From positions 1,302,001 to 1,366,000 of the forward strand of contig NZ_CP018911.1 of assembly GCF_004000605.1 (NCBI RefSeq): 64,000 nt of DNA. Reading direction: 5' to 3'. This document shows positions 7,960 to 59,882 of this stretch, piece by piece. The stretch is from Glycocaulis alkaliphilus (GTDB taxonomy: Bacteria; Pseudomonadota; Alphaproteobacteria; Caulobacterales; Maricaulaceae). Positions within the stretch are counted from its first letter, which is position 1. Each line of letters begins with the position of its first letter. The translations under genes and the position numbers were made by a program. Below the pieces are notes generated by a model. That model worked only from the letters and a program-made list of their open reading frames with translations. It did no database searches and was not told the origin of the DNA.

Positions 7960-9978
7960 TCAGGCGGCGTTGGATTGTGTGTGGTCGCGGCGCCAGTCAG
8001 TGAGGGCCGGGCCGAGCGCGCTTTTCAGCGGGTCAAGGAAGGGTTCAAACGCTTTCCATTGCTCCAGGCCGGAACGGTAGAGGGGCTGGCGCACCTGTTC
8101 GGAGCTGGCGGTGCGCACTTCGCGCCGGGTCTTGTGGAAATCGACACAAGCCTGCTCGAACGGCAGGCCGCAGAAATCGAGAATGCGGCGCACCTGAGCT
8201 TCAATATCGTCGACCACATCTTCATGGATGACGCGCAGGATTTCGCCGGGCAGCACCGCGTCCCAATGGTCCATCAGCTCCGCATAGGCGCGGTAATAGC
8301 GCCCGATCTCTTCAAGCCCGTAGGTGAATTCCTGGCCCTCGGCAAAGAGCTGCTTGAACCCGGAGAAGCAGCACGCCATCGGGTGGCGGCGCGCATCAAT
8401 GATCTTCGCGTTCGGCAGGATCAGCTTGATCAGCGCAATGTGCCGGAAATTGTTTGGCATCTTGTCGGTGAAGAAGGGCGCACCCTTGCGGTGGATCGCC
8501 GTCTCCTCGATATAGCGCCGCCCCATCGCGGCGAGTTCGTCTCCGTCCATCTCATGGAGGACACGCGGATAGCGTGTGCGGTCTGAACGGTCGCGGCCGC
8601 GAAGTGAATGGGCGGCGGAGAGGATATTGGGCAGTTCCAGCGTGCCATCCACCTGGCTGTGCGAGGCCAGGATCTGTTCGAGCAGGGTGGAGCCGGCGCG
8701 CGGCAGACCCACGATGAAGATGGGGGCCGGATCGTCATGCCCCTTGCCGGACTGTGCGGCGAACAGCTCCGGCGTACACAGCGCTTTCTGGGCTTCCAGC
8801 TCTTCTTCCATCTGGTCAGAGGTGTAGCGGGTCTGGCGGCGTTTGAGATCATTGCCGCGCGCATAGGCGGCAAAGGCGCTCTCGAAGTCCTCGCGGTCTT
8901 CATGCGCCTTGCCGAGCGCGAAGCTCAGATGGATGCGCTGGGTGTGGGAGAGGGCTGCGTTCTCTGCCTGCGCCAGCATCGCGGCCAGCTCGCCATCGTC
9001 AAAGCGGTAGGTTTTCAGGTTTGCCAGCGCGTACCAGGCGTCGGTGTGCTCCGGCTGGCTGGCCAGAGCCGCCTTGTAGGAAGCGACAGCCTTTTCGCTT
9101 TCACCAGCGGTCTTCAGTGCATGACCGCGCGAGGTGAGGGTGGCCGGGTCGCCCGGAATTTTTTCAAGCACGCGGTCAAAGGCCGACAACGCGGTTTCGT
9201 AATCGCCCGTCTGCATCGCCTCGATGGCGTAATGCGACAGGAAGACCGGACTGTCCGGATCGCGCTCCAGAAGGGCGCGCGCCTGCTCCAGCGCGGCGGC
9301 AAATTTCTGGCGCTTGCGCAGGACCTGAATGTAGTCGAGGCGCACCTGGATATTGTCCGGCTCGAAGGCCTGCGCGTTCTCCAGAAGAATCTCGGCATCG
9401 TCGGTGACGTTGAAGCGAACGCCTATTTCCGCCAGCAGGCGCATCGCCTCGACATGCCTTGGATTGGCTTTGAGGAAATTGCGGCACAGCGTCTCCGCGC
9501 GGATCAGCCGGCCCTCATAAAGATGGTGCATCACCGCCACGACAGGCTTTGGCAGGCCCGCTACGCGTTCACCTTGCGCGCGCGCCTGTCCGGCTTCGCC
9601 GGTCCGCCCCAGAGCCATGAGAATATCGCTCTGCGCAGCCCAGCTGGCGGTTAGGGCGGGGTTGTGCTGACAGGCGCGGGCATAGGCTTGCAGGGCATTC
9701 TCGTTGCGGCCCTTTGCGCGCTGGAGATGGCCTTCCTCCTGCCAGGCCCGGCCAAATTCGGGCTGGGCGGTCTTCAGCCGGTCCAGCGCGTCTTGCGCGT
9801 CATCCAGCCGCCCCAGATAGCGCTGGCAGACAGCCGTCATGTAGAGCGCCTCGCCATGCTCCGGCTCGGCGTCCAGAAAAGGGCCAGCAATATCCAGCGC
9901 CTCGGCGAAGGCGCCGGTCATGATCTTTTCCTGCGCCGCCTTCAACGCCGCATCGTGTGAATTGGAAGTCTCTGTCAA
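7960..9978 (-). CDS. TPR-repeat sulfotransferase family protein
   Basis: A 672-residue two-part protein. The N-terminal 390 residues are tandem tetratricopeptide repeats (typical A-Y-F pattern blocks such as ALYMTAVCQRYLGRLDDAQ and PGDPATLTSRGHALKTAGE). The remainder is a sulfotransferase fold whose 5'-phosphosulfate-binding loop is FIVGLPRAGSTLLEQIL (about residues 432-448), with a later DARRHPMACCFSGFKQLF motif. It would transfer a sulfuryl group from PAPS to a protein, glycan or small molecule docked by the TPR part. The fold is clear; the acceptor is unknown. It ends 24 bp before the BCCT gene start, so the three minus-strand genes may be cotranscribed. Confidence 0.88.
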   Translation of the reverse strand: MTETSNSHDAALKAAQEKIMTGAFAEALDIAGPFLDAEPEHGEALYMTAVCQRYLGRLDDAQDALDRLKTAQPEFGRAWQEEGHLQRAKGRNENALQAYARACQHNPALTASWAAQSDILMALGRTGEAGQARAQGERVAGLPKPVVAVMHHLYEGRLIRAETLCRNFLKANPRHVEAMRLLAEIGVRFNVTDDAEILLENAQAFEPDNIQVRLDYIQVLRKRQKFAAALEQARALLERDPDSPVFLSHYAIEAMQTGDYETALSAFDRVLEKIPGDPATLTSRGHALKTAGESEKAVASYKAALASQPEHTDAWYALANLKTYRFDDGELAAMLAQAENAALSHTQRIHLSFALGKAHEDREDFESAFAAYARGNDLKRRQTRYTSDQMEEELEAQKALCTPELFAAQSGKGHDDPAPIFIVGLPRAGSTLLEQILASHSQVDGTLELPNILSAAHSLRGRDRSDRTRYPRVLHEMDGDELAAMGRRYIEETAIHRKGAPFFTDKMPNNFRHIALIKLILPNAKIIDARRHPMACCFSGFKQLFAEGQEFTYGLEEIGRYYRAYAELMDHWDAVLPGEILRVIHEDVVDDIEAQVRRILDFCGLPFEQACVDFHKTRREVRTASSEQVRQPLYRSGLEQWKAFEPFLDPLKSALGPALTDWRRDHTQSNAA

Positions 9979-22680: not shown

Positions 22681-22721
22681 CGTCATTCCGGGCGAGCTTT
22701 TGGCGAGACCCGGAACCCAGC
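22681..22721. repeat. family-B palindromic unit (CCGGG subtype)
   Basis: CGTCATTCCGGGCGAGC...GAGACCCGGAACCCAGC, one unit of the CGTCATTCC...GGAACCCAG family, immediately after ivd. It probably forms a hairpin through CCGGG/CCCGG. Confidence 0.75.
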
Positions 22722-38339: not shown

Positions 38340-39007
38340 TCCCCTTACTCCCCACCTGTCATCCTCCGGCCGCGTAGCGGTCCGGGGGACCCATGCCTCT
38401 TTTAATTCCGCAGCCCTTTCGGGCTGCGATGTTCCGCGAAAAGTCGCGGGCGCGCAGTCGCGCTTTTCAGGCCGCAAAGCGGCCTGCAACGATACCGCTA
38501 GCTCTCACCTCTCAGGCATGGGTGGCCCGGATAAACCGGGCCATGACAGTGATTGGGAAATCGCGCCGGGAAATTGGCTCCTTTACGTACTCCCATCGTC
38601 ATTCCAGAAAGCGCGTCAGCGCTTATCTGGAACTCAGTTCTTTTAAAAAGGCTGGGTTCCGGCTTGCGCCGGAATGACGAGGTTGGGGGGTATCTGAACA
38701 TTCTGCAGGTACGCCGCCGAGCTTCTCAACCGGGGGATGATCCCGGACTGGTGATGTCCTCCCCCGTTTACGGGGGAGGTGTCTGGCTTGCCAGACGGAG
38801 GGGGGTAGGTGCTTTTCCCTGATCCTTCGAGACGTTCGCTTCGCTCACCCTCAGGATGAGGGGAAAAGCACACCAAAGCCCTCATCCTGAGGAGGCCGAA
38901 GGCCGTCTCGAAGGACGAGGGCCGCTACTGGCACGTCCTTCGCATGATGCATGCCCGATCCCCTCACGCTGTCCCTGATCCGGACAGAAGCGACAAAGGT
39001 TTCGGCC
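38340..39007. repeat. composite palindromic intergenic repeats
   Basis: Nearly 670 bp carry four repeat families in a row: family A (38357-38489), here with hairpin arms GCAGCCC-ttt-GGGCTGC instead of GCAACGC/GCGTTGC; a family-B inverted doublet (38597-38679); family C (CCTCCCCCGTTTACGGGGGAGG, 38759, with CCAGACGGAGGGGGG); and family D (38816-38935). The last 70 bp precede the cupin-like gene; a longer ORF start at 38951 is possible but less likely. Confidence 0.78.
38597..38679. repeat. family-B inverted doublet (83 bp)
   Basis: CGTCATTCCAGA...TCTGGAACTCAG, a short A/T-rich spacer (TTCTTTTAAAAAGG), then CTGGGTTCCGGC...GCCGGAATGACG. The outer ends are inverted copies of each other, giving a REPIN-like structure. 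Confidence 0.85.
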
Positions 39008-47844: not shown

Positions 47845-47935
47845 CGTCATTCCAGAAGCCCGAAGGGCTATCTGGAACCCAGTTGCTTGAAAAAACTGGG
47901 TTCCGGCTCTTCGCTTCGCTGCGGCCGGAATGACG
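47845..47935. repeat. family-B inverted doublet (91 bp)
   Basis: CGTCATTCCAGA...TCTGGAACCCAG, spacer TTGCTTGAAAAAA, then CTGGGTTCCGGC...GCCGGAATGACG. Same architecture as 38597, 56109 and 58226. Confidence 0.87.
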
Positions 47936-55659: not shown

Positions 55660-55700
55660 CGTCATTCCAGAAGCGGCGTGAGCCGCTATCTGGAACCCAG
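55660..55700. repeat. family-B unit, left arm of the GIY-YIG cassette
   Basis: CGTCATTCCAGAAGCGGCG...GCCGCTATCTGGAACCCAG, ending one base before the stop codon of the GIY-YIG gene. It is inverted relative to the unit at 56042-56082. Confidence 0.88.
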
Positions 55701-56000
55701 CTAGAGCAGCGTCTCGTACAGATCGCGCCAATCAGGGTTGGCCGCTTCGATCAGTTCCAGCTTCCATGCGCGTTTCCAGCCTTTGATCCGCGTTTCGCGG
55801 ACAATGGCGTGCTCCATGGTGGCATGCATCTCGAACCAGACGAGCAGCGTCACGCCATACTTGCGTGTGAAACCGGGCACCATTCCTTCGCGATGTTCGT
55901 AAATCCGCCGTACCAGATCACTGGTCACGCCGGTGTAGAGCGTGCCGTTGCGCTGGCTCGCCAGAATGTAGACGGCAGGCTGAAAGAGGCGCTCTCGCAT
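55701..56000 (-). CDS. small GIY-YIG nuclease family protein
   Basis: A 99-residue single-domain GIY-YIG protein of the YhbQ/COG2827 type. The paired motifs appear as VYILASQRNGTLYTGVT (GIY becomes VYI, YIG becomes YTG), followed by the catalytic Arg in DLVRRIYEHREG and a Glu in HAIVRETRIKGWKRAWKLELIE; it ends NPDWRDLYETLL. The start at 56000 is where homology begins; the frame extends 45 codons further upstream but those codons are the neighbouring repeat (SPGMT...VIPAAAKLQSRNP-type translation). The gene lies inside a pair of inverted family-B repeats, the basis of the main finding. Confidence 0.9.
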   Translation of the reverse strand: MRERLFQPAVYILASQRNGTLYTGVTSDLVRRIYEHREGMVPGFTRKYGVTLLVWFEMHATMEHAIVRETRIKGWKRAWKLELIEAANPDWRDLYETLL

Positions 56001-56041
56001 CCCGGTATTCTGACGGCTGATTGCGCGAAAGAAACAGTTTT

Positions 56042-56082
56042 CTGGGTTCCGGCTCTGCAGCTTCGCTGCGGCCGGAATGACG
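56042..56082. repeat. family-B unit, right arm of the GIY-YIG cassette
   Basis: CTGGGTTCCGGC...GCCGGAATGACG, inverted relative to the left arm at 55660-55700. Outer ends of the two arms (CGTCATTCC and GGAATGACG) match like terminal inverted repeats. Confidence 0.88.
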
Positions 56083-56108
56083 ATTGGAGTGGTAACGTAC
56101 CGATCCCT

Positions 56109-56200
56109 CGTCATTCCGGGGGAGCGTAGCGACACCCGGAACCCAGCTTTTTATAAGCGACTGGGTTCCAGATAGCGGCTGCGCCGCTTCTGGAATGACG
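56109..56200. repeat. family-B inverted doublet (92 bp)
   Basis: CGTCATTCCGGG...CCCGGAACCCAG, spacer CTTTTTATAAGCGA, then CTGGGTTCCAGA...TCTGGAATGACG. Order of CCGG- and CCAGA-type arms is the reverse of that at 38597 and 47845. Confidence 0.87.
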
Positions 56201-56308: not shown

Positions 56309-57493
56309 CTACCGCCGGTCGGACCGTTCCGCGCGGGCAGGGGGCGCAGGCGGTGTGGACGGGCGCTGCGCGTCCTCCAGCCAGAGCTGCACCGGCTCGC
56401 CCAGTTCAGAGCGGCGCATTTCAAACTGCCAGCCCGTATACGCCCGCGCCCGGGCGAGCTCGGCCTGCGCACGCGCGGCTTCGCGCAAGGATGCGCGGGC
56501 GCTTTCCATCGCCTCGCGCTCCAGCCCGCCAGAGGCCATGGCGCGCGATTGCACGCTGGCCAGCGCATCGGCGAAGGCTTCCTGGGCGGCTTCCAGCTGC
56601 GCCAGGCGGCGCGCCTCGGCCTCGGCGATGAAGGCGCGCTCATCCACCGGACGGGCGCCGGGGACTTCGTCCTCGCAGACAGCCAGCGTGATATTCATGT
56701 CTTCAGGCAGACGCGTTGATGCGTCGCCGCATGCCCGTTCCAGCAGGGATGGCGTCAGGCCGCGTGCCTCGCTCAGGTCCGCGCCGGTGAGGTTTACCGC
56801 GCGAAAGCGCGCCCCGGTCAAATTGGCCTCGCGCAGGCTCGCGCCGGTCAGGTCCACATGATCAAGGAAGGCGCCCTCCATCGCGGCATCGCGCAGATTG
56901 GCGTGGTGCATGATGATGTGCTGCATGACCACATTGGTCAGGCGCGCATCGCTGAGGTCGGCCGCGCGCATGTCGCCAGAGCGTATCGTCGCCGTGCTGA
57001 AATCGGCCTCGCGCAGATTGGCCCCCTGCAGGCTTACCTGCACAAGGCTGGCCCCGGTCATGCGCACATTGCGCGCATCGGCGCCCTGCAGCATCACCTG
57101 ATGGGCGCGCATGTCGGTCATGTTGGCGTCTGTCAGGCTGGCGCCGCTCATTGTCACGTTCGACAGGCGCACCTCGCGCATGGAGGCATCGGCGAAGTTC
57201 GCGCCATCAAGGCGCATATTGGCAAAGCGCGCGCCGAGCAGCTGGGCGCCGGAAAAATCGGCATTGGCAAAATCGCCGCGATAGAGATGGGCGCCGGCCA
57301 GGTTGGAGCCGCTGAAATCGCATGATGCGCATTCCCCGCCAATAACGAGGCGGCGCTGCGGGTCGCTGTCGCGCGGGGCTCTGATGGCTTGCCCGGCATC
57401 ATTGGCATCGCCAAAAGCGGACGCGGCCAGCGCTGGCGGCGTTAACGCCGTCAGGGGGAAAAGCGCAGCAATGACAACATGGCGCAGCTTCAT
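56309..57493 (-). CDS. secreted pentapeptide-repeat protein
   Basis: A 394-residue exported protein: signal peptide (MKLRHVVIAALFPLTALTPPALA), about 35 tandem A(D/N)LXX-type pentapeptides (about 55-265; for example GSNLAGAHLYRGDFANADFS, NLREADFST), then ARGLTPSLLERACGDASTRLP, and a C-terminal coiled coil (about 305-380, Ala/Glu/Arg-rich). Repeats of this type form a right-handed quadrilateral beta-helix. The GLT...CGD-STRLP motif is shared with the next gene. The ATG at 57493 follows AAAAGGG and starts the signal peptide. Function unknown. Confidence 0.88.
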   Translation of the reverse strand: MKLRHVVIAALFPLTALTPPALAASAFGDANDAGQAIRAPRDSDPQRRLVIGGECASCDFSGSNLAGAHLYRGDFANADFSGAQLLGARFANMRLDGANFADASMREVRLSNVTMSGASLTDANMTDMRAHQVMLQGADARNVRMTGASLVQVSLQGANLREADFSTATIRSGDMRAADLSDARLTNVVMQHIIMHHANLRDAAMEGAFLDHVDLTGASLREANLTGARFRAVNLTGADLSEARGLTPSLLERACGDASTRLPEDMNITLAVCEDEVPGARPVDERAFIAEAEARRLAQLEAAQEAFADALASVQSRAMASGGLEREAMESARASLREAARAQAELARARAYTGWQFEMRRSELGEPVQLWLEDAQRPSTPPAPPARAERSDRR

Positions 57494-57554
57494 GCCCTTT
57501 TCCCTACTCCCCGGCGCAGGCAAGAGCGACTTAAATTGCAGTAATGGGAAAAGT

Positions 57555-58052
57555 CTAGCGGCCCGGCGCGCAAGGCGGAACGCGAAGCCCGCCCGGCAGG
57601 CGGGTGGAGTCATCGCCGCAGGCGGCGTTGAGCTGGGCCTGCGTCAAACCGTGCGCGCCCTGCATTTCCGCGCCGGAAATATTCGCGCCGGCAAGGTTCG
57701 CCCCGGAAAAGTCCGCACCGCCAAAATACCCGCCGACCAGAATGGCCCGCTCCAGATTGGCTCCGGCAAAGCTGACCCCGGTAAACCGGCCGCCAAACAG
57801 ATTGGCGATGGAAAGATCAGCTTGCGCCAGCCGTGCATTGTTCATCGTGGAGAGCGAGAGATCGGCCTGGCGCAGGCGCGAGCCGGAAAGATCGACGCCC
57901 GGCAGATTGCGATAGGCAAGGTCGGCCTGGAACAGATTGCACCCCGTACACGATGCGCCCGCCTGTACCCGCGCGATCTCGCCGGCATTTTGCGCCAGTG
58001 CGGGCGCGCCAGCGGCGATTGCCAATGCCAGAGCGGCCAGAACCTGTTTCAT
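57555..58052 (-). CDS. secreted pentapeptide-repeat protein, small paralogue
   Basis: A 165-residue exported protein: signal peptide (MKQVLAALALAIAAGAPALA), a CTGC pair, about 17 pentapeptides (FQADLAYRNLPGVDLSGSRL, SFAGANLERAILVGG), and the same tail motif as its neighbour (AHGLTQAQLNAACGDDSTRLP). It is 61 bp upstream of the larger paralogue on the same strand, so both are likely in one transcript and arose by duplication. Confidence 0.87.
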   Translation of the reverse strand: MKQVLAALALAIAAGAPALAQNAGEIARVQAGASCTGCNLFQADLAYRNLPGVDLSGSRLRQADLSLSTMNNARLAQADLSIANLFGGRFTGVSFAGANLERAILVGGYFGGADFSGANLAGANISGAEMQGAHGLTQAQLNAACGDDSTRLPGGLRVPPCAPGR

Positions 58053-58225
58053 CACGGCACATCCTCATCCTGCCCATGCGGGCTTTGGGGAAGGAGCAAG
58101 CAAGAGCCGGGCCGGGGGAGGGTGCTGGGGGCAGGCCCAGCTGAAGATGCCTGATGCTCTGGGTTCCGGCTCTGCAGCTTCGCTGCGGCCGGAATGACGA
58201 TGTAGAAAGATGCGCTCTCTCTTCT

Positions 58226-58318
58226 CGTCATTCCGGGCGAGCGTAGCGAGACCCGGAACCCAGATTTTCATGAGCGGCTGGGTTCCAGATAAGCGCTGAC
58301 GCGCTTTCTGGAATGACG
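58226..58318. repeat. family-B inverted doublet (93 bp)
   Basis: CGTCATTCCGGG...CCCGGAACCCAG, spacer ATTTTCATGAGCGG, then CTGGGTTCCAGA...TCTGGAATGACG. Arm order matches 56109. Confidence 0.87.
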
Positions 58319-58650
58319 AAGGGAAGGCTTCGACCGTTATCGCATCGCACTGACGCCTGCGCCGCCGCCCGCCGTCTCCACCTCCGACCGGCCCTCCATG
58401 ACAACGTGCCAATGTATTAACACGATGAACTGAGTGGGCTGGCCAAGGCAGGGGAAGAGGGAATGCGTGGGTGGAGCCGCGCGGCGGGAAGAGGGAAGGT
58501 GCGGGCAGGGCGGTGCGTCTGGAAGGTGCGGGGTGCGGAGCGCCACACGGGTATCTGGGTTCCAGATAGCGGCTCACGCCGCTTCTGGAATGACGATGTA
58601 GAAGAACACGCCCTCTCTTCTCGTCATTCCGGGCGAGCGTAGCGAGACCC

Positions 58651-58758: not shown

Positions 58759-59882
58759 GATGCCTGTTCCTGTGATGCGAGGTCCGATGCAACCGGCCTC
58801 GTGCAACTGTTCAGGTTGAACCACGGTGTGCGGGACGGGGTCCGGGCCGGGTCACGGTCTTCAAAAACCTGGAACCCAACGGCCTCCGTCCCGCAAACAT
58901 CCTGACACATCAACCACACACAGGAACCCAGCCGGCGCGCAGCGCCGCAAGGGCGACCGCCCGCCCGCGACTTTTCGCGGAACATCGCAACGCGGATGCG
59001 TTGCGGAACTAAAATAAAGACTGGGTTCCAGACAAGCGCTGACGCGCTTTCTGGAATGACGAAGGGAAGGGTTCGGACAGTCTGGTGCATCGCGCAGCAA
59101 GCACGCGGACCGGCGAGCCACTTCACCCACTCAACTCCACCTTCACCCCGCAACCATCTCCCGCAGTCTCTGATCCGCCTCGCTCCACCTCGAGTGGCCC
59201 AACAGAGCGTGCCAATGTGGTAACGCAATGTGCTGGGTGAGCAAGTCATGGCGGGGCGGTGCGTCTGGGAACTGGTGGGGAGTTATGGCAGGGCGGTGCG
59301 TGTGGAAGGGGCGGAGCGCAGCGGCACCCGGCCGGGTTTCTGTACTGCGCCAGCTCCCCCGGTCATGGCCGTGCGCCGTGCTCTCACGTCTCGCGAGCTC
59401 AACTCACCGGGTCCCCGGCCGCAGAGCCGGGGTCCAGCGTCCAGCCCCTGCGCTATTCCATGGAGCTCGCGTTCCCCGTTGTCACGGGGACAGGCGGGGC
59501 GGGGGAACCCGGCGTGTAGGGATTCTTGTTCAATGCGGCGCAGCCATTTTTGTATCTCGAACCTCTCCACCGGGGTCCCCGCCCCCGAGCGGGGACCCAG
59601 CTTGTCGAGCATAATGTGACACTTGCCATGCATGCCACCTTCATGGGACAGGCGCAGGCTCGCCAGCGGGCGCCTGTACGTCCCCAGACGGACAATCGGG
59701 TCCATGACAACGCCCCGTGGCCAAAAACATGGATCCCGGCTCTGCGGCCGGGAACCCGGTGGAGAGGTCCACGGCCAAACCGGCAGAAGCTTTGAAAATG
59801 CATCAATATCGGGGTCTCCCGCGCTGACGGGAGACCCAGCTTGTTCTTCAGGAACAGCTCGCCATGGATACCGGCGCCCCCG

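Follow-up and report, generated by a model that had tools for sequence, protein, structure and literature searches.

A small GIY-YIG nuclease gene lies within CGTC-tagged REPs and is a candidate partner for their spread

In the 64,000-nucleotide stretch of the Glycocaulis alkaliphilus genome analyzed here (the window), a gene for a 99-residue GIY-YIG nuclease is enclosed by two inverted arms of a palindromic repeat that recurs throughout the genome, including in doublets that contain no gene. We propose, with a probability of roughly 0.6, that gene and arms together make up a mobile element with REPs at its boundaries, that the nuclease is a dedicated partner of CGTC-tagged REPs, and that the gene-less doublets are non-autonomous derivatives of the gene-bearing unit, a reading built on sequence comparison.

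The gene occupies 55701-56000 on the minus strand, has an ATG start (MRERLF...), and was identified as an open reading frame and by its match to Pfam PF01541 (GIY-YIG; 58.2 bits, cut-off 22.6). A 144-residue, GTG-started reading frame runs on through the right arm, but homologues align from the ATG start of the 99-residue frame instead. On the 3′ side of the gene stands a CGTC-REP arm of X type (AGAA...TATCT; 55660-55700, plus strand; hairpin z −6.2) and on its 5′ side an arm of Y type (GGCC...GAGCC; 56042-56082, minus strand; hairpin z −4.4). Both arms read CGTCATTCC...GGAACCCAG, are inverted to each other and are each predicted to form a strong hairpin in DNA; the CGTC end of the left arm faces outward, and its CCCAG end meets the GIY-YIG stop codon directly. 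This is the arrangement that the original prediction had described at these positions, and the four gene-less doublets that it had listed are likewise all in place: a Y arm and an X arm with a 14-bp spacer at 56109-56200, 26 bp from the gene unit; an X arm and a Y arm at 47845-47935; a Y arm and an X arm at 58226-58318; and, at 38597-38679, a doublet in which one arm is one base off (GGAACTCAG). Single arms are found at 58159-58199 (minus strand; identical to the right arm of the gene unit, with a doublet 26 bp on), 58555-58595 and 59021-59061 (both X type, minus strand), and 22681-22720 (Y type, plus strand). The window contains 17 copies of the head core, CGTCATTCC, compared with a mean of 0.75 and a maximum of 3 in 100 dinucleotide shuffles. 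At both 56042-56200 and 58159-58318 the same Y arm is followed by 26 bases of linker and then by a doublet, a larger composite that the second time has no GIY-YIG gene on its left side. Next to this repeat cluster, at 56309-57613 and 57555-58055 on the minus strand, are two reading frames resembling pentapeptide-repeat genes.

Across the host genome, a single contig of 3.02 Mb, exact arms number 66 (33 per strand), whereas the reversed pattern used as a control has no match. Fifty-four of the 66 make up 27 inverted pairs, whose spacers measure 12-18 bp in 22 cases, 110-158 bp in three and 341-347 bp in two. X/Y heterodimers account for 25 of the 27 pairs, versus 13.4 expected (p 2.7e-6, with arm classes that we defined after inspecting the arms); the two ends of the element are therefore distinct. 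Both of the 341-347 bp pairs contain a GIY-YIG gene: that of the window, and a second copy at 366.6 kb (L002) that is 80% identical to it. The host genome has two further family genes, each flanked by a repeat in direct orientation: for one (L003) this is an 88-bp element that has 27 genomic matches, itself included, and for the other (L004) a 140-bp element that has 18, mostly partial. All four family genes therefore lie between copies of multi-copy repeats, of three kinds, and two of the four lie inside inverted CGTC arms. The three pairs with 110-158 bp spacers (G000:C1:952893-953084, 1300873-1301096 and 2114800-2114995) are outside the window. Two of these long spacers, as read, have GCTCCGCACATCCGTGCGTCGC in common, a sequence unrelated to the GIY-YIG gene and found inverted in L103. 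We also considered the 112- and 158-bp spacers as gene remnants and rejected the idea, their alignment scores being about those of shuffled sequence (highest 15, shuffle maximum 14-16).

By its sequence, the window repeat belongs to the CGTC-tagged REPs, which were defined by Di Nocera, De Gregorio and Rocco (2013; PMC3733652) and include Neisseria dRS3 and Rickettsia RPE-4/6. Like the published members, it has a CGTC head or tag, a hairpin with a stem that begins A-T, a CCA-type tail and a preference for inverted dimers, and the minimal form CGTCATTCCGGCGAAAGCCGGAACCCAG is present; the inner stems of many host-genome arms are longer than the published 8-9 bp. That paper describes these REPs as a superfamily that "apparently lack[s] a dedicated transposase" and reports, with no explanation given, that heterodimers predominate in some families. 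Unlike that account, the main text of which makes no mention of GIY, ours attaches an enzyme family to CGTC REPs.

The protein itself is a small member of the GIY-YIG superfamily. Seven residues (Y11, G19, Y22, R32, H36, E69 and N88), among them those of a GIY-YIG active site, do not vary across the 35 family members that we aligned; the Pfam match together with the invariance of Y11, Y22, R32, E69 and N88 places the family in the superfamily. Pfam finds no domain beyond PF01541 at E values up to 0.001, and no DNA-binding domain of NUMOD type; NCBIfam yields no match above cut-off and PHROGs none. The AlphaFold2 model of the window protein has a mean pLDDT of 93.9, and the solved structures that it most resembles are UPF0213 proteins (1zg2, Foldseek E 8e-5, and 1ywl), so that in size and predicted fold it is like the standalone YhbQ/UPF0213 proteins. 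Slx1 and UvrC domains come next in the model comparison, at E values of 0.03 and above, which is below usual significance.

Matching repeats on both sides are common across the gene family. To score flanks, we aligned the 300 bases to the left of a gene locally with the reverse-complemented 300 bases to its right, kept the best score, and took as controls open reading frames of at least 90 codons called mechanically from the same stretches, as opposed to curated genes. Among 61 genomes, the host's and those of relatives up to the same order, 49 carry the family gene, copy numbers ranging from 0 to 7. At a threshold score of at least 16, inverted flanks are found at 49 of 70 genes in these genomes, our own four included, compared with 9 of 474 control frames; inverted or direct flanks are found at 55, and the other 15 have no matching flanks. 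Left out of the 70 are L053 and L060, at contig edges, and L103, which is the gene of L035; 40 of the stretches from relatives comprise about half, taken alternately, of some 100 matches beyond those already covered, together with the remaining copies from the congener G001 and one duplicate.

Named genomes were scanned by protein sequence. The query was a 9-row alignment of closer sequences, so the loci retained, the best 80 of at least 585 confirmed relatives, lean towards the close subfamily. They come mostly from Pseudomonadota, with others from Elusimicrobia, Hydrogenedentota, Planctomycetota and elsewhere. With L127 skipped at a contig end (and L163 retaining an N in its flank), 65 of 79 genes from this best 80 have inverted flanks versus 8 of 914 control frames, and 72 of 79 have inverted or direct flanks versus 18 of 914, a count of matching flanks alone, irrespective of repeat copy number in those genomes; seven of the 79 lack matching flanks. 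Measured against small frames only (no longer than 200 codons and with at least 80 bases of spacer on both sides), the same 72 of 79 compare with 4 of 59. In a third sample, drawn evenly across Pseudomonadota, we counted matching flanks at 21 of 28 new loci and none at the other seven, and a further sample consisted of 20 weak matches, a selection of our own from a larger set. The expectation that GIY-YIG homologues would be flanked by repeats more often than other genes is thus borne out in the best 80 of at least 585 relatives, and the association of gene and repeat is both solid and specific.

Plasmids and phages add a few cases. Four of six loci from the plasmid collection are flanked. The two others, L262 and L263, occupy the same place on Rhizobium plasmids of R. 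tumorigenes type, between a gene for a GlxA-family regulator and htpG, and are perhaps settled or domesticated copies. For Rhizobium CIAT894, among the matches listed (30 of 145 records), no record but its own covers 80% of the query. A Neisseria gonorrhoeae record (L266; NZ_CP119140.1), chromosome-sized and labelled a plasmid, has a family gene of 68% identity that is flanked by dRS3-like CCGTCATTCCCGCGCAGGCGGGAATCYAG arms, one lying 183 and the other 246 bases away from the matched domain. Phages gave one weak match to the family.

The repeat type follows the protein. Outward-facing CGTC heads stand on both sides of 49 of the 80 named loci (the best 80 of at least 585) versus 5 of 896 control frames, and on at least one side of 72 of the 80 versus 118 of 896; eight of the 80, whose outward strand shows no head of either type, carry no label. 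Thirty-six of the 49 outward pairs are of GTCATNCC type and 13 of GTCATTGCGAG type, and no locus combines the two. Arms like CGTCATTCC(C/G)...(C/G)GGAATCCAG are found again from Alpha- to Gammaproteobacteria. On an IQ-TREE phylogeny of 81 family proteins, computed in quick mode from 96 columns and leaving many forks unresolved, a single change of arm type accounts for 73 labelled genes, versus a mean of 17.1 in 500 shuffles, none of which fell below 12. One change likewise suffices within Alphaproteobacteria (16 A, 16 B; shuffle minimum 6, 0 of 500 as low) and within Sphingomonadales (9 A, 6 B; 1 of 500 as low). Host order, by contrast, changes 19 times on the same tree, where 14 orders (55 rows) need at least 13, which indicates that repeat type goes with the enzyme and not with the host. 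The GTCATTGCGAG clade (SH-aLRT 94) holds both Alpha- and Betaproteobacteria. Protein and repeat thus appear to co-diverge, with an A/B split that depends on a quick 96-column tree (SH-aLRT 94); this supports the specificity of the link between enzyme and repeat, and repeat type likewise tracks enzyme clade in RAYT/REPIN systems.

Other GIY-YIG types behave according to their subfamily, as assigned by eye from motifs. Genes with a GKGAKYT-like motif, a group that we take to be YhbQ, are flanked by repeats in 0 of 6 cases. In a second subfamily (C-x-DGS-x-Y, often CADGSYYTG), we counted flanks at 13 of 14 genes, mostly of another palindromic family, CCTGAG...CGAAGG. These two counts, to which we applied a Fisher test, treat L214 and L261 as the one gene that they are. 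Loci with CCTGAG...CGAAGG flanks are L212, L213, L242, L243, L248, L250, L251 and L257-L260; three odd members without flanks (L253, L254 and L256) are in neither group, and L249 is a broken, flanked copy of the first subfamily. The second subfamily and its repeat, which came up while we were examining exceptions, are an independent enzyme-repeat pairing.

We also compared the distribution of gene and repeat across genomes, with tests that ignore kinship and a REP pattern that misses other arm types. Among the 61 genomes comprising our own and its relatives, at least 5 REPs occur in 27 of 49 gene-bearing versus 1 of 12 gene-less genomes (p 0.004), so that 11 of the 12 gene-less relatives have at most 4. 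Among 200 Pseudomonadota, at least 20 REPs occur in 20 of 46 gene-bearing versus 11 of 154 gene-less genomes (p 5.5e-8); the 26 gene-bearing genomes with fewer than 20 pattern matches include some that use other arms. The refuting case of doublets in genomes that have no such gene gave a mixed outcome. Most gene-less genomes are REP-poor, but at E 1e-8 no family gene is seen in 8 of 23 genomes with at least 30 REPs. Of these eight, seven are drafts in at least 100 contigs, from which repeat-bounded genes may have been lost; G161, with its 20 contigs, is clearly not of this kind. When 13 gene-less, REP-rich genomes were searched more sensitively, with a 35-row alignment as query, five places emerged, all of which we examined; they represent relatives in only four of the genomes and none of the first subfamily. 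Two of the four have the second subfamily (G050, with 85 REPs, and G087) and two the YhbQ type (G181 and G197).

Gene units come and go between relatives. At the aspS site of the window gene, the unit is present in two of six genomes and absent from four: the host genome and G001 carry arm, gene, arm and doublet, while in G003 and G005 the aspS stop meets that of the following gene, only a short spacer is present in G004, and G002 has other repeats and another neighbouring gene. No CGTC doublet is found at this site in the gene-less congeners. The G001 ortholog (L100; G001:C7, gene at 8001-8293) is frameshifted, which indicates that family copies decay. The L002 unit is present in the host genome and absent from all four congeners searched; no CGTC doublet remains at the site in these four, one of which (G003) has a repeat of the other family there. 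A third unit, at G001:C12, is missing from four congeners; in three of these, G000, G003 and G005, the spacer holds a CGTC-type doublet. Junctions at the L002 and aspS sites are not cleanly arm-bounded, having extra bases outside the arms, and neither site has a convincing target-site duplication; a possible 9-bp repeat, TAAACCCGC, is seen at the L002 site only.

Plasmids of Sphingobium show similar variation. Eleven records cover most of one locus, seven with the gene and four without, and we read two of the former and three of the latter. Two of the three gene-less plasmids read (L268 and L269, near 2303-2510) retain one hairpin with CGTC at both ends, in which the outer halves of the two arms are joined within an 8-base stretch common to both arms, and which is degenerate in one of the two plasmids; the third has no such hairpin. 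The single hairpin may be a scar left by deletion, the footprint of an excision event or a precursor. Shinella plasmids were considered as a clean empty site and set aside, the surroundings of the unit being too divergent to place a junction. Presence and absence between relatives is therefore unit-wise, in comparisons of congeneric species, as opposed to near-identical strains, and of plasmid records; at that level the variation that had been anticipated is seen.

These features suggest how the unit might move. The gene-less doublets would be REPIN-like, with the same two ends as the gene unit. In single-stranded or supercoiled DNA, both arms would extrude as hairpins, and their constant tags could then pair, CGTCA with TGACG on the outside and CCCAG with CTGGG on the inside, to form a four-armed junction. 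The minimum-energy DNA fold of both doublets tried (56109-56200 and 47845-47935) is a four-armed cross of this kind, with a CGTCA/TGACG outer stem, a CCCAG/CTGGG inner stem and two lateral hairpins. Its ensemble frequency is about 0.07 and one of the two centroids has another shape; moreover, any inverted pair gives tag pairing, so the cross fold alone proves nothing. The GIY-YIG nuclease would cut the junction, and cutting would lead to spread as host repair or replication copied the unit elsewhere or deleted it, with host enzymes doing the joining. GIY-YIG enzymes hydrolyse DNA and are not known to carry out strand transfer, so spread would need host help.

The same observations could be read as the work of a homing gene, the nuclease targeting CGTC-REP doublets and copying itself in during break repair, in which case the repeats would be older and would have spread by other means. 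Free-standing GIY-YIG homing endonucleases exist, and co-divergence of arm and protein is equally compatible with target specificity. Heads face inward on both sides of 23 of the 80 named loci (best 80 of at least 585) versus 6 of 896 control frames, and the full doublets that flank many genes, like the direct copies that flank others, have the look of insertion at repeats. The G001:C12 site, with its doublet in three of four gene-less congeners, is what homing predicts, but the L002 and aspS sites offer no CGTC doublet as a possible target in gene-less congeners. Older repeats would also make REP-rich, gene-less genomes common, and they are in fact a minority (8 of 23, and 1 of 12 gene-less relatives with at least 5 REPs); nor does Pfam show any DNA-binding domain added to the GIY-YIG domain. 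We consider homing unlikely, though it is the main rival.

Repair by a domesticated enzyme is, in our estimate, very unlikely. Here the nuclease would remove or resolve replication-blocking REP cruciforms and be kept beside its substrate, any spread being a side effect or unrelated. Its closest predicted fold is UPF0213 and, more weakly (Foldseek E 0.03), the branched-DNA nuclease Slx1; the half-arm hairpin of two of three gene-less Sphingobium plasmids is what cutting and rejoining, or slippage, would leave; and some copies, such as the Rhizobium pair L262 and L263, are syntenic and unflanked. A housekeeping repair gene should be mostly syntenic, however, whereas this one ranges from 0 to 7 copies among relatives, sits at different places in different congeners and includes copies with frameshifts or stops. 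Passive linkage, in which REPs acting as 3′-end hairpins or terminators would collect around any small, weakly constrained intergenic gene, is strongly disfavoured, and we give it hardly any weight. CGTC REPs do lie mostly downstream of genes, according to PMC3733652, and an outward-facing head stands on one or both sides of 118 of 896 control frames. Matched two-sided pairs are nevertheless rare elsewhere (4 of 59 small, spacer-flanked frames versus 72 of 79 genes from the best 80 of at least 585), YhbQ-type GIY-YIG genes have none in six, and linkage of this sort leaves the tracking of protein clade by arm type unexplained.

The mobile unit that we favour recalls several known systems. The arrangement of RAYT transposases and REPINs is established in enterobacteria and pseudomonads. 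Like REPIN/RAYT systems with their GTAG REPs, the present one has an enzyme gene within inverted copies of a genome-wide, multi-copy repeat, gene-less repeat dimers, a repeat type that tracks enzyme clade and a patchy distribution; unlike them, it has the tag CGTC and a GIY-YIG nuclease, the only domain that Pfam finds, in place of an HUH/Y1 transposase. The RAYT-like layout that the original prediction had drawn is supported. Free-standing GIY-YIG homing genes of the I-TevI/Seg kind are similarly selfish-looking and patchy, but here the bounding repeats are multi-copy without the gene, and no added DNA-binding domain was found by Pfam. Standalone YhbQ-type genes differ in lacking flanking repeats in all six sampled. 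Slx1, the next fold after UPF0213, cuts branched DNA, but it is a larger eukaryotic repair enzyme that has a partner, Slx4. The doublets are like the MITEs of classical transposons in being short, non-autonomous copies with the ends of the gene-bearing unit, and unlike them in having self-complementary hairpin ends, no transposase gene inside the unit and no clear target duplication. Among the matches listed in the open full-text literature, a body that leaves subscription journals and preprints outside, no paper links GIY-YIG with REP-type repeats. In the parts available to us, a 2006 GIY-YIG survey (PMC1564403) does not mention palindromes, and a 2025 REP survey (PMC12306157), a 2018 HUH survey (PMC6006769) and a paper on Bradyrhizobium repeats (PMC5082802) do not mention GIY.

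A broader reading, to which we give slightly less than even odds, is that stand-alone GIY-YIG nucleases drive a class of transposase-free elements, each subfamily with a palindromic superfamily of its own (GTCATNCC and GTCATTGCGAG CGTC REPs for the first, CCTGAG...CGAAGG for the second); the repeats would then exist because of the nucleases, through junction cutting followed by host copying and joining. The small GIY-YIG nuclease is the best candidate so far for the spreader of CGTC REPs, and the question of their enzyme, left open in PMC3733652, now has a concrete, testable candidate family, whose matched enzyme and repeat types make swap experiments possible. If the enzyme does mobilise the repeats, DNA would be spread by a plain nuclease instead of a transposase, and this would explain why the number of small GIY-YIG genes varies, from 0 to 7, among related genomes.
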